DNA from: Guyparkeria hydrothermalis
GTDB taxonomy: Bacteria; Pseudomonadota; Gammaproteobacteria; Halothiobacillales; Halothiobacillaceae
DNA: 64,000 bases
Assembly: GCF_023555385.1 (NCBI RefSeq)
Contig: NZ_JAJSED010000001.1
Span: 1,771,501 to 1,835,500 of the forward strand
Direction of reading: 5' to 3'
This document shows positions 13,050 to 18,623 of this stretch, piece by piece. Within the stretch, counting starts at the first letter, position 1; every line of letters starts with the position of its first letter. Position numbers and translations under genes: made by a program. The notes below the pieces were generated by a model. It ran no database searches. It saw only the letters and a program-made list of their open reading frames with translations, and was not told the DNA's origin.

Positions 13050-13559
13050 TCAATTCGGGCGGGCGTCGCCGGCGCCTTCGGCCTGAGCCGCGCGCTGTTG
13101 CTCGTGCTGGGCGTACAGGGCGTCGAAGTTGATCGGCTGCAGCACCATCTGCGGGAAACCGCCCTTCATGACCAGGTCGCTAACCGTCTCGCGGATGTAG
13201 GGGAAGATCAGCGTCGGGCAGTAGGCACCGAGCAGCTGGCGACGCGTGGCGTCGTCGAAACCCTTGATGGTGAACACGCCCGCGTACTGGACCTCGGCGA
13301 GGTAGATCGTCTTTTCGGCGTGCGTGGCGGTGACGGTGATGGTCAGTTCCGTCTCGAAGGTGTTGTCGCTCAGCCGAGCGGCATTGTTGCCCACCTGAAC
13401 GCTGACTTCGGGCTTCCAGTCGTCGCGCGTGAAGATATCCGGCGCCTGTGGCGACTCGAAGGACAGGTCCTTGAGGTAGACCTTCTGCACGAAAAACTGC
13501 TGTTCGTTTCCTTCGCCTGCCTGGTCGTTGCCGGCGGCGTTGTTTTCACCCTCTGCCAT
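13050..13559 (-). CDS. secB: SecB, export chaperone
   Basis: SecB is the tetrameric cytoplasmic chaperone that holds precursor proteins unfolded and delivers them to SecA. The 169-residue protein has an acidic, disordered start, the FFVQKVYLKDLSFESP segment, the conserved VQYAGVF and CPTLIFPYIRETVSD regions and the FPQMVLQPINFDALY block, then a charged tail. Length is close to E. coli (155). It sits ten bases before gpsA and downstream of the inserted trxC. Confidence 0.96.
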   Translation of the reverse strand: MAEGENNAAGNDQAGEGNEQQFFVQKVYLKDLSFESPQAPDIFTRDDWKPEVSVQVGNNAARLSDNTFETELTITVTATHAEKTIYLAEVQYAGVFTIKGFDDATRRQLLGAYCPTLIFPYIRETVSDLVMKGGFPQMVLQPINFDALYAQHEQQRAAQAEGAGDARPN

Positions 13560-13593: not shown

Positions 13594-14031
13594 TCAGCGA
13601 ATCCCGTGACCGGCCAGCCATTGCACCAGCTGCGCGGCCGGCAGGGCGCCGGAGAGGCGGTCGATCTCGCGACCGCCGGAAAAAAGGATCATCGTCGGGA
13701 TGCTGCGGATGCCGAAGCGCGCCGAGACATTGGGGGCGCGCTCGGTCTCGAGCTTGGCGACGACCAGCCGGCCACGGAAGTCGCTCGCCAGCTGATCGAA
13801 GGTGGGAGCCATCATCTTGCAGGGCCCGCACCAGTCGGCCCAGAAATCCACCAGCACCGGCAGGTCGTTGCGGCCAATGTGCCGGTCGAAACCGGCCTCG
13901 TCGAGCGTCACCGGTCGGCCGGGAAACAGCGCCTGACCACAGCGACCGCATTTGCCGCCGCCGAGTCGCTGGGCGGGCACCCGATTCACTGCTCCGCATT
14001 CGGGGCAGACCACGTGTTTGGATTCACTCAT
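13594..14031 (-). CDS. trxC: TrxC, thioredoxin 2 with N-terminal zinc ribbon
   Basis: Thioredoxin 2 is a cytoplasmic, zinc-binding thioredoxin, OxyR-induced in E. coli. The 145-residue protein has two CxxC knuckles (Cys9/Cys12 and Cys28/Cys31) forming the zinc ribbon and a thioredoxin domain with WCGPC at 67-71 and the cis-proline loop RSIPTMILF. Gene context is unusual: it lies between grxC and secB inside the normally continuous yibN-grxC-secB-gpsA cluster, placing three thiol-active proteins in one transcription unit. Confidence 0.94.
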   Translation of the reverse strand: MSESKHVVCPECGAVNRVPAQRLGGGKCGRCGQALFPGRPVTLDEAGFDRHIGRNDLPVLVDFWADWCGPCKMMAPTFDQLASDFRGRLVVAKLETERAPNVSARFGIRSIPTMILFSGGREIDRLSGALPAAQLVQWLAGHGIR

Positions 14032-14102
14032 CGCGACGCGTCCTCTCGTCGACCCCGGTGGCCATGATAACGCTCCGGCTCCCGGCGCGGGGCTCGCACG
14101 TC

Positions 14103-14429
14103 TCAGGCGCCGGAGACAGGGGGGTCGCCGGCGGCACGTCGCGCCTCGGCCTCCACCAGCGGCATCAGCCTGCCGTCACGATCCAGCGCGGCCAGCTCGT
14201 CGTACCCGCCGACGTGGGTTTCGCCGATGAAGATCTGCGGCACGGTCAGGCGCTTGGCCCGCTGGATCATCTCGTCCTTCTTCGCCGGCGACAACTGCAC
14301 GTTGATTGACTCGAAGTCCAACTCGCGCTTTTTCAGCAAACGCTTGGCGAAATGGCAGAACGGGCAGAGCGGACTCTGGTAGACGACGATCGGCGGCGGC
14401 TCGATCGCACGGGGGTTCTCGCCGGTCAT
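14103..14429 (-). CDS. grxC: GrxC, glutaredoxin 3
   Basis: This dithiol glutaredoxin reduces protein and glutathione mixed disulfides. The 108-residue product has the active site Cys22-Pro-Phe-Cys25 in SPLCPFCHFAK, the cis-proline segment VPQIFIGE and the GGYDEL glutathione-binding motif. It is about 20 residues longer than E. coli GrxC because of short extensions at both ends. The active site is CPFC rather than the more frequent CPYC. It follows the rhodanese gene by nine bases. Confidence 0.93.
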   Translation of the reverse strand: MTGENPRAIEPPPIVVYQSPLCPFCHFAKRLLKKRELDFESINVQLSPAKKDEMIQRAKRLTVPQIFIGETHVGGYDELAALDRDGRLMPLVEAEARRAAGDPPVSGA

Positions 14430-14438
14430 GCGGTGCTC

Positions 14439-14867
14439 TTACTTGCCCTTGGCGACAGGATAGTTCTGGCCTTCCCAGGCAATGATGCCACCACCAAGGT
14501 GACTGACGTTCTCGAACCCACCCTTGACGAGTATGTTCGCCGCGGTCGCCGAACGGTTGCCGGAACGGCAGTACAGCACGACCTCGTCGGGGTTCTCGCT
14601 CTTGATGTCGCCGAGCTTGTTCTCGAGCTTGCCCAGCGGGATGTGCTGCGCGCCCTTGATATGGCCGGCCTTCCACTCGTTGTCTTCACGGACATCGATC
14701 AGGGCCACGCCATCTCGGCCGGCCTTGCGGGCGACTTCGGCAGGTTCGAGCGTGTTGAATTTCTGCATACGTCGCGACAGTTCGTTGCTGATGAGCAGGA
14801 TGATCAGGACGACCGCCACGGTCGAAAGTACCCAGTGGCGAGCGAGGAAATCGATGAAGGCTTCCAT
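14439..14867 (-). CDS. YibN-like membrane-anchored rhodanese
   Basis: A single N-terminal membrane helix (about residues 11-29, VLSTVAVVLIILLIS) anchors a rhodanese domain with the active cysteine Cys100 in VVLYCRSGNRS. The CRSGxR loop is that of a persulfide-carrying sulfurtransferase. At 142 residues it matches E. coli YibN, and the position upstream of grxC-secB-gpsA is the same. The rhodanese domain should face the cytoplasm. Adjacent DUF2892 and ArsR genes suggest a role in persulfide handling; this is inference. Confidence 0.9.
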   Translation of the reverse strand: MEAFIDFLARHWVLSTVAVVLIILLISNELSRRMQKFNTLEPAEVARKAGRDGVALIDVREDNEWKAGHIKGAQHIPLGKLENKLGDIKSENPDEVVLYCRSGNRSATAANILVKGGFENVSHLGGGIIAWEGQNYPVAKGK

Positions 14868-14945
14868 GAACGGTTCTCGAGGTTCTTCTCAGGACGTCGT
14901 AGTCGGAGACGTGGGATGTTGCGGCATACAATGGCCGGCACGCGC

Positions 14946-14990
14946 AAAAAATTCAAGGCACCGTCGGTGCCATACCGATGCGGTGCCTTG
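14946..14990 (-). terminator. Intrinsic terminator after the DUF2892 gene
   Basis: CAAGGCACCG (14954-14963) pairs perfectly with CGGTGCCTTG (14981-14990). Read on the minus strand the ten-base-pair stem is followed by AATTTTTT. It separates the DUF2892 gene from the rhodanese cluster, so the two are likely distinct transcripts. Confidence 0.85.
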
Positions 14991-15031
14991 TTCGGATACC
15001 GGGCCCAGGCAAGCGGGCGCCTCGCGCTGTG

Positions 15032-15244
15032 TTAACAGGCGCGCCGCACGCCCATCCTGGCCAGAATCGAATCCAGCGGACAGAAACGCGTAATGCCGCT
15101 CTGGAACAGGTTCAGGCCGATGAAGGCCGTCAGCCACAGCCAGGAGACCTGACCCAGGTCGGCCTGACCCGTGACATGGGCCAGGGCCAGGGTAGCCAGG
15201 ATCATCAGGCCCGCGATGATGCGAACGTAGCGATCGGTGGTCAT
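15032..15244 (-). CDS. DUF2892 small membrane protein (YgaP membrane-domain-like)
   Basis: This 70-residue protein has two hydrophobic segments (IIAGLMILATLALAHV and WLWLTAFIGLNLFQSG) and the DUF2892 signature GLNLFQSGITRFCPLD, ending in a second cysteine. In E. coli the same domain is the membrane part of YgaP, fused to a rhodanese and controlled by the ArsR-type regulator YgaV. Here rhodanese and membrane part are separate genes. ATG 15244 is chosen for its GGAGG ribosome site; a TTG 15 bases upstream is the alternative. A promoter overlapped by a palindrome lies upstream. Confidence 0.85.
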   Translation of the reverse strand: MTTDRYVRIIAGLMILATLALAHVTGQADLGQVSWLWLTAFIGLNLFQSGITRFCPLDSILARMGVRRAC

Positions 15245-15304
15245 GGAAGCCCTCCGCAAAATCAGTAAGCTAAGGGCGCGCCGCGCAAGGATCGGAGCGC
15301 CCGA

Positions 15305-15341
15305 ATAGAATTATTTTATTCTATCCTAATTAAGCGGGCAA
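15305..15341 (-). promoter_or_regulatory. DUF2892 promoter with overlapping ArsR-type operator
   Basis: On the minus strand TTGCCC (15341-15336), a 17-bp spacer and TAAAAT (15318-15313) form a good sigma-70 promoter. The perfect inverted repeat ATAGAAT-N6-ATTCTAT (15305-15324) covers the -10 and start site. This layout suits repression by the ArsR-family protein encoded immediately upstream, whose coding end contains the -35. Binding by that protein is inferred from position and AT-rich dyad form. Confidence 0.65.
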
Positions 15342-15655
15342 AAAACTTCCTGCATCATGCCGATCAGGCGCAGCGTCCGGGCATCCGAAACGCGATAGAA
15401 GACGCGGTTGGCGTCCTTGCGCGAAGCGAGAATGCCCTTGTCACGCAAGATGGCCAGGTGCTGGGAGATGTTGCTCTGGGTGGTGCCGACCGCCTCGACG
15501 ATCTGCTGCACGCTGAGCTCGTTGTCGCCCAGTACGCACAGGATCTTCAGTCGCAAGGGGTGCGACATGGCCTTGAGCGAACGAGAGGCGCGCTCAATGT
15601 CCTCTGAGCGGCCCATCAGGCGGGTGGCGGGATAGTCCTCTGTTTCCAAATTCAT
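15326..15655 (-). CDS. ArsR-family regulator of the SqrR/BigR/YgaV persulfide-sensor type
   Basis: The 109-residue protein is a winged-helix repressor with the recognition helix in VEAVGTTQSNISQHLAIL and the wing KDANRVFYRV. It lacks the metal-site ELCVCDL motif of ArsR/SmtB. It has two cysteines, Cys40 (KILCVLGD) and Cys106 (QEVFCPLN), at the positions of the tetrasulfide-forming pair of SqrR/BigR (Cys41/Cys107 in SqrR). That makes a reactive-sulfur sensor the best reading. Start ATG 15655 is chosen; a GTG four codons upstream is possible. It precedes DUF2892 and a candidate operator. Confidence 0.82.
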   Translation of the reverse strand: MNLETEDYPATRLMGRSEDIERASRSLKAMSHPLRLKILCVLGDNELSVQQIVEAVGTTQSNISQHLAILRDKGILASRKDANRVFYRVSDARTLRLIGMMQEVFCPLN

Positions 15656-15874
15656 GGTTCGACCCACGTGCTGGTTATGTGGTGACGATTTCGTCGTCGT
15701 TCCCCGCGAGGAACGATGCCCTGGGCCGAATATAGGCCCTCGGCTCGGCGAATACCGCCATGCTCCGTATACTACCGTTTTCCGTCAATTTGTTGCAGTG
15801 GCCGCTCCGCCCCCCGCCCAAGGGGCAACCCGGGTCCGCGGCGGGCCACCGTCCACGACCGGTCAGGGGACACC

Positions 15875-17065
15875 TTGCCACAATCATCTCGCGCCAAACG
15901 CCTTCATGATCTGCCCTCGCGCTGCGGCCGGCGTGGATCGCTCGCGTTTCTCTGGCTGGCACTGTCGATGATGCCCATGGCCCCGTCGGCGGAGCCGATC
16001 GAGGAGCAGATCGAAGCACAACGGGCAACGATTGCCTCGACGGAATCCGAACGAAAGGCGGCTCGCGAGGCGCTGGCCGCCCAACAGAAACGACTGGCGT
16101 TTCTGGAAAAGAAGACCGCAGAACTGGACGCCGAACGGGCAGAACTGGAAGAGCGCCAGCAGGCCCTGGCCGAACGCGAAGAACAGTTGCTCCGCGGGCT
16201 GGCACGGCGCAAAGCCGAGCTCGAACGGCGCCTGCGCGCCGCCTACCCGCTGACTCGCGGCAGCGCGCTGCAAACCCTGCTGAGCGACGGCGACGCCCTG
16301 CAGGCAGAGCGCGATCTTCACTACCTGCGCAACCTGATTCGCCCCGTGCAGGAGGCCCGGCGGGCGCTGGAGGCCCAGCGAGTCGAGCTGGCCGACAACC
16401 GTGAGGCCGTCGCCGAAACCGAACGCTCCCTGGCGCAGGCCGGCGAACGGCTCGAAACGCACTACGAGGACGTCCGGGAAAACCTGGACGAGCAGGAGCG
16501 TCTGCTCGCCAGCCTGGGCGAGACCCTCGACGAGCAGCAGCAATCGCTCAAGTCGATGCTCGAGCGCAAGCGCCGCCTCGATCGCGAGGTGGCCGCTGCC
16601 CGCGCCGCCAGCAAGCGAGAGGCGGAAAAGGCCGCCCGCGAGGAGAAGAGGGCGTCTGCCGGCCCGGCAGTCACCACCGACGGCATCCCGGTGGCCGGCG
16701 AGATCAAGCGCAACTTCGGTGAGTCACTCCCCCAAGGTCGCCTGCGCAACGAGGGGGTCGAGTTCCGCGCGGCGGCCGGCAGTCCGGTCCGCGCCGTCGA
16801 TGGGGGCAAGGTCGCCTACGCCGGCCCACTCAAGGGCTTTGGCAACCTGGTCATGGTTCGCCACCAGGGCGACTACCTGTCCCTGTATGCCCACTGCCGC
16901 TCCCTTGCGGTGTCGAAGGGTCAGCAGGTCTCCCAGGGCGAGCAGGTATGCGACTCGGGCCGGATCGATGCCAACCGCGAGGGTCTGTACGTCGAAGTGC
17001 GGCGGGGCAATCGCCCCATCGACCCGACTCGCTGGCCCGCGTGGAAAAAGGTGGTGGGTGGCTGA
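15875..17065 (+). CDS. envC: EnvC-like murein hydrolase activator (degenerate LytM protein)
   Basis: EnvC-type proteins are periplasmic activators of cell-division amidases. The product (about 396 residues) has a signal segment (GSLAFLWLALSMMPMAPSA), a long coiled coil from about residue 45 to 270 and a C-terminal LytM/M23 fold with NEGVEFRA and YLSLYAHCRSL. The metal-site HxGxD is replaced by N-E-G-V-E and the final HxH is missing one histidine, so it should be catalytically dead like EnvC. I propose a TTG start at 15875 with AGGGGA upstream; the frame is open further 5'. ctpA follows, as in many gammaproteobacteria. Confidence 0.8.
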   Translation: MPQSSRAKRLHDLPSRCGRRGSLAFLWLALSMMPMAPSAEPIEEQIEAQRATIASTESERKAAREALAAQQKRLAFLEKKTAELDAERAELEERQQALAEREEQLLRGLARRKAELERRLRAAYPLTRGSALQTLLSDGDALQAERDLHYLRNLIRPVQEARRALEAQRVELADNREAVAETERSLAQAGERLETHYEDVRENLDEQERLLASLGETLDEQQQSLKSMLERKRRLDREVAAARAASKREAEKAAREEKRASAGPAVTTDGIPVAGEIKRNFGESLPQGRLRNEGVEFRAAAGSPVRAVDGGKVAYAGPLKGFGNLVMVRHQGDYLSLYAHCRSLAVSKGQQVSQGEQVCDSGRIDANREGLYVEVRRGNRPIDPTRWPAWKKVVGG

Positions 17066-17285
17066 CCGATGGCCGGGTCGTCGTCGCTAACCGAGCCGCT
17101 ATGCCCTATGATTTCCGAGGCAAATCGGGGCAAGCGGACTCGCGACGGACGCCATGACCGTGGCATAGTGGTTGCCCCATGGATCGGGGGTTTTATCACC
17201 CCACGCTCGCCTCACGATGCAGGGAATACCAGAAACTGTCCAAGCGAGCCCCGAAAGCCGACGAAACATGCCTAGAGAGAACACC

Positions 17286-18623
17286 ATGACCAGCTGGATT
17301 CGCAAGGCCTCGAGCCTGGGCGTTGCCGCCTTTTTCGGTTTTGCCATTGCCATCGCCATCAATGCGGTGGCCGAACGGCCCGCCGACACCGGCGCTACCG
17401 ACATTCCGCTGGAAGAGCTTCGCACCTATTCCGACGTGCTCGATCGGGTCCGCTCGGATTACGTCGACGACATCAGTGAAAGCCAGCTGATCGAGAATTC
17501 CATTCGCGGCATGATCTCGGAGCTCGACCCGCACTCCGGCTACCTCGACGACGAGGAATTCAAGAGCCTGCGCGAATCCACCAGCGGCGAATTCGGCGGC
17601 CTGGGCATCCAGGTGGGGATGAAGGACGACGTGCTAACGGTGATCGCGCCGATCGACGACACCCCCGCCAAGCGGGCCGGCCTTGAAGCGGGCGACCGGA
17701 TCATCCGCATCAACGGCGAACTCACCGAGGACATGGACCTGGAGGAAGCCGTCAAGCTGATGCGCGGCAAGCCGGGCACCGACATCGACCTGACGATCGC
17801 CCGCGAAGGGGAGAAGAAGCCGCTGGAATTCACCATCACCCGCGCGGTGATCAAGACCGAGTCGGTCAAGCACGAGATGCTCGAACCGGGGCTGGGCTAC
17901 ATCCGCGTCTCCCAGTTCCAGTCGCGCACCGTCGAGCAGATGCACGAAGCCCTCGACGCACTGGCCAAGGCGAACGAGGACAAGCCGCTCAAGGGCCTGG
18001 TCCTCGACCTGCGCAACAACCCGGGCGGCGTGCTGGACGGCTCCGTGGAAATGGTCGATGCCTTCCTTGAGGCAGGCCAGATCGTCTACACCAAGGGCCG
18101 CGTGGCCGACGCCAAGATGAGTTTCGAGGCCAGCGCCGGTGACCGCCTCGACGGCGCGCCGATGGTGGTGCTGGTCAACGGCGGCTCGGCCTCGGCCTCG
18201 GAAATCGTCGCCGGCGCCCTGCAGGACAGCGGCCGGGCGCTGATCATCGGCGAGCGGACCTTCGGCAAGGGCTCGGTACAGTCGATCATGCCGCTGGCGA
18301 ACGGCGGCGCGCTGCGCCTGACCACCGCTCGCTACTACACCCCGAGCGGTCGGTCGATCCAGGCCGAGGGCATCAAGCCCGACGTGACGGTACACCAGCT
18401 CAAGGTGAGTGACATCGAGGAAGTATTCTCGATCTCCGAGGCGAGCCTCGCCGGCCACCTCACCAACGGTGAGTCGGAGGGCGACGACAAGTCGGACAGC
18501 AAGAAGGCCAAGTCGGACGAGGAAGAAGACAAGGAGCCGCTGGTAATCCGCGATTACCAGCTCTACGAGGCACTGAACATGCTCAAGGGCATGGTGATTG
18601 TCAGCAAGAACGGTCGTCCGTAA
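17286..18623 (+). CDS. ctpA: CtpA/Prc-type carboxyl-terminal processing protease (S41A)
   Basis: This periplasmic, membrane-tethered protease trims or degrades envelope proteins such as murein hydrolases. The 445-residue protein starts with an uncleaved-looking signal anchor (LGVAAFFGFAIAIAINAVA), then a helical N-domain, a PDZ domain (about 100-185, FGGLGIQVGMKDD) and the S41 catalytic core with Ser303 in NGGSASASE and Lys328 in RTFGKGSVQ, spaced 25 residues as in Prc. A charged tail rich in Asp, Glu and Lys precedes the last helix. ATG 17286 is preferred; an ATG six codons upstream is possible. Confidence 0.93.
   Translation: MTSWIRKASSLGVAAFFGFAIAIAINAVAERPADTGATDIPLEELRTYSDVLDRVRSDYVDDISESQLIENSIRGMISELDPHSGYLDDEEFKSLRESTSGEFGGLGIQVGMKDDVLTVIAPIDDTPAKRAGLEAGDRIIRINGELTEDMDLEEAVKLMRGKPGTDIDLTIAREGEKKPLEFTITRAVIKTESVKHEMLEPGLGYIRVSQFQSRTVEQMHEALDALAKANEDKPLKGLVLDLRNNPGGVLDGSVEMVDAFLEAGQIVYTKGRVADAKMSFEASAGDRLDGAPMVVLVNGGSASASEIVAGALQDSGRALIIGERTFGKGSVQSIMPLANGGALRLTTARYYTPSGRSIQAEGIKPDVTVHQLKVSDIEEVFSISEASLAGHLTNGESEGDDKSDSKKAKSDEEEDKEPLVIRDYQLYEALNMLKGMVIVSKNGRP

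Follow-up and report, generated by a model that had tools for sequence, protein, structure and literature searches.

How is the small set of membrane sulfur genes that follows an ArsR-family gene in Guyparkeria (Halothiobacillaceae) controlled, and is the regulator next door the one that controls it? The window analyzed here is a 64-kb stretch of the single-contig 2.39-Mb genome, and positions are given within that stretch unless another location is named. The genes concerned run in one direction, with glutaredoxin, trxC and secB following the rhodanese in that order, and a reading frame that we take to be envC lies divergent from arsR:

15326-15655, minus strand: arsR, a predicted SqrR/BigR-type dithiol ArsR regulator with Cys40 and Cys106 (profile and alignment)
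15032-15244, minus strand: DUF2892 (YgaP-like_TM) membrane protein with an FCP cysteine (Pfam YgaP-like_TM, E 1.7e-14)
14439-14867, minus strand: YibN-type rhodanese with a hydrophobic N-terminus and a YCRSGNRS loop (rhodanese profile, E 3.9e-22)
14103-14429, minus strand: glutaredoxin 3, grxC (profile match)
13594-14031, minus strand: thioredoxin 2, trxC (profile match)
13050-13559, minus strand: secB (profile match)

The Pfam HTH_5 profile recovers the ArsR winged-helix fold in the regulator (E 5.9e-14). The cysteines at residues 40 and 106 (numbering starts at the ATG, 15655) fall opposite cysteines of BigR, YgaV and HlyU in PDB sequence matches, which agrees with the earlier note's placement of both residues in the tetrasulfide-pair positions; BigR is the best of these matches by sequence, and SqrR of R. 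capsulatus is presumably among them as well. All 17 orthologues of a first alignment have the pair, as do all 58 close-clade proteins aligned separately (one genome contributes two of these) and 14 of 16 and 15 of 16 proteins of two more distant sets; it is absent from the other two PF01022 proteins of this genome. Scored with the NCBIfam BigR equivalog model NF040642, the protein reaches 77 bits against a cut-off of 155, so we treat it as a member of the dithiol group and do not file it as BigR. From these alignments we infer that it is a SqrR/BigR/YgaV-type dithiol protein that would sense sulfane sulfur. Outside the window (L122, 1024-2563; G000:C1, ~1748.0-1749.7 kb) the genome also encodes a 254-aa protein in which an ArsR-type HTH is fused to a C-terminal rhodanese; it does not have the cysteine pair and is a second candidate sulfur-responsive regulator. 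The gene for this fusion is divergent from a metallo-beta-lactamase-fold gene, which we presume may encode a persulfide dioxygenase.

The window rhodanese is the YibN of a yibN-grxC-secB cluster, having a single rhodanese domain and being followed by grxC and secB. Its catalytic loop YCRSGNRS is intact, and the hydrophobic stretch at its N-terminus was read by eye in the protein. A strict YCxxGxRS pattern finds the loop in 56 of the 101 loci of the second sample described below, 39 of them in the window form. All 35 DUF2892 proteins caught by pattern have Cys-Pro at the position where E. coli YgaP reads FCG. A second DUF2892 (YgaP-like_TM) gene lies outside the window at G000:C1:2003630-2003803 and adjoins none of the genome's three PF01022 proteins.

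The association of this regulator with yibN extends far beyond Guyparkeria. Among 184 gammaproteobacterial genomes, each at least 90% complete, 105 have an ArsR match at 1e-15 and 85 have a protein at least 63% identical, and 44 loci were taken from the 83 with an ArsR of at least 63% identity outside the two rows of our own genus. A same-strand YibN-type rhodanese starts 20-369 nt after arsR in 40 of these 44 loci, and no YibN-type match follows arsR in the other four (L130, L148, L151 and L152). DUF2892 lies between the two genes in five of the 44 (all five proteins were recovered again in a repeat search), and arsR leads directly to yibN in 35 of the 40 yibN-bearing loci. When the ArsR is 44-60% identical (L167-L182), yibN lies downstream in 4/16 loci, and at 35-48% identity (L183-L198) a rhodanese match lies just downstream in 4/16; in two loci of the latter set (L186 and L197) the rhodanese is fused to DUF2892 in a single frame, as in E. 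coli ygaP.

A second sample of 110 loci combined 30 relatives with the 80 top-scoring of at least 587 named matches, some genomes being in both, and was reduced to 101 by leaving out nine loci whose arsR fell outside the parsing pattern. All 101 regulators have the cysteine pair, yibN lies downstream of arsR in 98, and DUF2892 lies between them in 38. Selection by top score makes the 80 named loci a biased list; in them a YibN match occurs in 78 loci, often with matches to envC and ctpA lying divergently before arsR and matches to grxC, trxC or secB following it. Many of the names among these 80 presumably belong to sulfur oxidizers. ArsR beside yibN is the general arrangement, and DUF2892 is an optional gene between them. 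Our search of the open-access literature found neither a published link of a dithiol ArsR regulator to yibN nor a description of this arrangement and target context.

This linkage bears on whether arsR merely adjoins a housekeeping yibN-grxC-secB cluster and regulates genes elsewhere. The terminator that parts DUF2892 from yibN in Guyparkeria (below) would suit a bystander, and the lack of candidate sites elsewhere in the genome leaves room for one, since the sequence searched may not be the true recognition sequence. Against this, yibN follows at mostly short gaps in 40/44 class-sample loci as compared with 4/16 in the 44-60% group, and we regard a bystander role as very improbable. The neighborhood also raises the question of the signal. 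Glutaredoxin and thioredoxin genes come after yibN, which would fit if the signal for this dithiol ArsR were disulfide or peroxide stress, or a metal, and not sulfane sulfur; a disulfide has been reported for BigR, where YgaV forms a tetrasulfide (PMC9774250). However, the constant neighbor is a rhodanese, and characterized relatives with the same cysteine pair sense reactive sulfur (PMC12423496), so another signal appears improbable to us.

The end of arsR and the gap before DUF2892 contain these elements:

15336-15341, minus strand: -35 hexamer TTGCCC of the DUF2892 promoter, within the 3' end of arsR (promoter scan)
15313-15318, minus strand: -10 hexamer of the same promoter, TAAAAT, which lies in the conserved dyad's left arm (promoter scan)
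15305-15324, no strand assigned: the dyad noticed first, ATAGAAT-N6-ATTCTAT
15304-15320, minus strand: conserved odd-centered dyad AATAAAAT-N-ATTYTATT, a candidate operator over the -10 (genus comparison)

The earlier note had read a DUF2892 promoter, TTGCCC-17-TAAAAT, overlapped by the dyad ATAGAAT-N6-ATTCTAT. The promoter is real: a scan finds it at 15341-15313 on the minus strand as the sole promoter-like site on both strands of 13800-17400, where shuffles give a mean of 0.5. The dyad is present exactly, and it is not the conserved unit, being perfect in only six of the nine genus loci that keep the surrounding block; its arms pair 5/7 in L011, 3/7 in L013 and 4/7 in L014. The invariant part of the block over those nine loci is ATAAAAT-N-ATTYTAT (15305-15319), and the odd-centered 17-mer pairs 7/8 in seven loci and 8/8 in two. 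In L013 a double change, at positions 6 and 22, retains the symmetry.

By itself a dyad here is weak evidence because such repeats arise in shuffled gaps and elsewhere in the 64 kb: of 3000 dinucleotide shuffles of the 81-bp gap, 263 contain a perfect 7-bp inverted repeat (spacer 0-12) and 151 an odd-centered 17-mer with at least 7/8 pairs, and the window holds 18 perfect 7-N6-7 dyads. We count the site as real because the block is conserved, and not because of the dyad alone. Mean identity over the nine loci is 89% for the 23-nt block, 40% for a 23-nt stretch after it (ungapped) and 72% for third codon positions of arsR, in a sample that is small because the nine loci hold only four distinct 23-mers. 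In the three diverged loci, identity to the window is 91, 70 and 83% in the block as compared with 73, 60 and 72% at third positions.

The site core, overlapping the -10, is kept in nine of eleven genus genomes. The intact site is absent from the remaining two, G004 (L026), which has no block, and G010 (L012), in which a degenerate remnant of the block is left beyond ~510 bases of extra sequence after arsR. The L012 insert has CTGCACGAATCGAT close to its beginning and ATCGATTCGTGCAG at a later point; together they make an inverted repeat that resembles the ends of a small mobile element. Sister genera are without the site in the corresponding gap. Elsewhere in the 2.39-Mb genome the first-noticed dyad has no other match with fewer than three mismatches, further good copies of the site were not found, and the next-best match to AATAAAATNATTYTATT (two mismatches, G000:355557) has no recognized sulfur-related gene in the ORF list. 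The window arsR has no copy of the dyad upstream, as had been noticed from the start.

Whether ArsR would recognize this site was approached through the regions upstream of arsR in other families. Motif training omitted the Halothiobacillaceae on purpose, and near-duplicates were removed together with upstream stretches that were short or N-rich (63 loci reduced to 59, and 103 to 96). The 59 dereplicated loci share a strong element around TATTATTGTATNATGTTTTANTTATA, carried by 47 of them, with a log-likelihood of 354-383 vs 76-92 for three shuffles per width at widths 20-22, the shuffles having had fewer starts. Upstream of arsR in L067, L068, L084 and others there is a differing palindromic word, CTAATATTAG or near it, and the loci bearing it score low with the main element. 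The main element is not recognizable in Guyparkeria, where the region upstream of arsR holds this stretch:

15765-15777, minus strand: CGGTAGTATACGG, found upstream of arsR in several genus loci, a possible remnant of the arsR promoter

A matrix built from the arsR-upstream regions of other families places its top site of the entire 64 kb in the Guyparkeria arsR-DUF2892 gap in 4/4 cuts. Column permutations reach the matrix score in 43, 13 and 139 of 2000 trials (three cuts), and dinucleotide shuffles of the gap reach it in 40, 14 and 116 of 2000. Nine palindromic models trained on 96 loci also rank the gap first, with tails of 76-242 of 3000 and with differing centers. AT content explains much of the motif's preference for the gap, and the resemblance of the gap site to the arsR-upstream element of relatives, at permutation tails of 0.7-8%, is at most suggestive.

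The second promoter region of the locus lies between DUF2892 and yibN:

14946-14990, minus strand: intrinsic terminator between DUF2892 and yibN (fold and genus conservation)
14926-14956, minus strand: putative promoter of yibN, with TTGAAT lying in the tail of the terminator and, after a 17-nt spacer, CATTGT(AT), a poor -10 vs TATAAT

Outside the genus the DUF2892-yibN gap is 5-96 nt and arsR overlaps DUF2892 by 4 nt in L029-L031, and therefore arsR-DUF2892-yibN is likely on one transcript there. Within the genus the gap is 144-273 nt, with 432 nt in L012 and 27 nt in G004 (L026). The terminator that the earlier note had placed between DUF2892 and the rhodanese is real: a 10-bp stem capped by a 5-bp stem and followed by U6, it folds in a way that 5 of 200 shuffles equal and is present in all eight of the genus gaps printed. 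The terminator and the separate promoters are a Guyparkeria feature, and in sister genera arsR-DUF2892-yibN is close-packed. The same eight gaps have CATTGTAT 17 nt downstream of a TTGAAT that lies in the terminator tail, an arrangement resembling a yibN promoter whose -10 is poor. The end of the U-tract seems to double as the yibN -35, with constant spacing in all eight. ATTGTAT occurs as a single copy in the 64 kb, at 14926-14932 within this putative promoter (0.76 expected anywhere), and the same heptamer forms the core of the arsR-upstream element of other families, a match noticed after the fact.

These observations allow a different assignment of targets, with the arsR promoter and yibN as the targets of ArsR and the dyad in front of DUF2892 being no more than an AT-rich promoter or a site that serves another regulator. 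The strong shared element of other families does sit upstream of arsR, the only ATTGTAT of the window falls in the yibN promoter, and a 7-bp dyad is seen in 263/3000 shuffled gaps. Yet conservation in the gap is confined to the block before DUF2892, whose symmetry the double change in L013 keeps, and we think this alternative fairly unlikely.

The reading we prefer, and hold to be somewhat better than an even prospect, is that the regulator is a SqrR/BigR-type sulfane-sulfur repressor acting on its own neighborhood, including the dyad at the DUF2892 promoter. For it we count the dithiol pair, the yibN linkage, the genus-conserved core over the -10 and the motif's top site; against it we count the weak motif likeness under AT control, the absence of the site from sister genera, G004 and G010, the activator role of HlyU, and the BigR score below cut-off. 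The reduced ArsR dimer would sit on the promoters of its neighborhood until sulfane sulfur (polysulfide or persulfide) bridged Cys40 and Cys106, upon which ArsR would leave the DNA and the putative membrane sulfur-handling genes, DUF2892 and the YibN rhodanese with its glutaredoxin, would be expressed. The target in many gammaproteobacteria would be an arsR-(DUF2892)-yibN unit with the conserved AT-rich promoter element upstream of arsR. For Guyparkeria we envisage a DUF2892 promoter whose -10 would be controlled through AATAAAAT-N-ATTYTATT, and a separate yibN promoter behind the terminator. The locus itself is well conserved and of a known kind, a dithiol ArsR repressor with a membrane sulfurtransferase, and the mechanism is plausible.

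YibN is a conserved protein with the active site of a rhodanese, and its sulfur role is left open in the portions of PMC12282094 consulted. From its linkage to a dithiol, sulfur-sensor-type regulator in many gammaproteobacteria follows a direct and testable hypothesis of what YibN does. That a deeply conserved clade of SqrR-type persulfide sensors (85/184 gammaproteobacterial genomes) is hard-wired to yibN, and that YibN is therefore an envelope persulfide-handling enzyme, is a tentative proposal to which we give rather less than even credence. If true, the arsR-DUF2892-yibN order would be a two-gene counterpart of YgaV-YgaP, occurring in several families. Guyparkeria suggests a route by which such a regulon can be rewired: a split operon, separate promoters and a different putative operator.

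Several characterized systems can be set beside this locus. BigR of Xylella and Agrobacterium has the same cysteine pair and is the best PDB match by sequence, but its targets are Blh, a DUF442-ETHE1 protein, and a TauE-type transporter (PMC5823870), and the window ArsR falls under the NCBIfam BigR cut-off. SqrR of Rhodobacter capsulatus belongs to the same subfamily and has the same pair by the descriptions in PMC12423496 and PMC9774250; its motif ATTC-N8-GAAT, as quoted in the latter, does not fit the block, in which the arms are reversed and GAAT precedes ATTC in both dyads. HlyU, a related dithiol protein, is an activator, and its footprint is given in PMC4330345 as a 17-bp odd-centered imperfect palindrome; the Guyparkeria candidate site is likewise a 17-bp odd-centered palindrome. 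ArsR regulators with the cysteine pair have been described close to genes for rhodaneses and transporters and to sqr, sox, pdo and shdr (PMC12423496), and section 2.1 of that paper, on such neighborhoods, does not mention yibN or grxC. In E. coli, yibN forms an operon with grxC, secB and gpsA, and the inner-membrane YibN interacts with YidC (PMC12282094). The rhodanese gene neighbors are the same as here; the difference is that the E. coli account, in the portions consulted, mentions no ArsR, whereas in the loci described here arsR precedes yibN.

The closest comparison is YgaV-YgaP. E. coli YgaV represses ygaVP from a site over the promoter, sulfide relieves the repression and a Cys-tetrasulfide is formed (PMC9774250). 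YgaP consists of a rhodanese domain (7-99) and YgaP-like_TM (115-166), and its gene adjoins ygaV. The earlier note had called the Guyparkeria locus a split YgaV/YgaP-like module, which stands for the domain content, present as separate linked genes, and not for an origin by splitting YgaP: the rhodanese is YibN, and 35/40 yibN loci have arsR-yibN without DUF2892, so "split" describes content and not a demonstrated origin. In Guyparkeria the two domains are unfused genes in the order DUF2892, then rhodanese; the rhodanese, of YibN type, has a hydrophobic N-terminus of its own; and the regulator is not a YgaV orthologue by neighborhood, with DUF2892 having its own promoter and site. What the two systems share is a dithiol ArsR gene, with cysteines at identical positions, followed by rhodanese and YgaP-like_TM domains.
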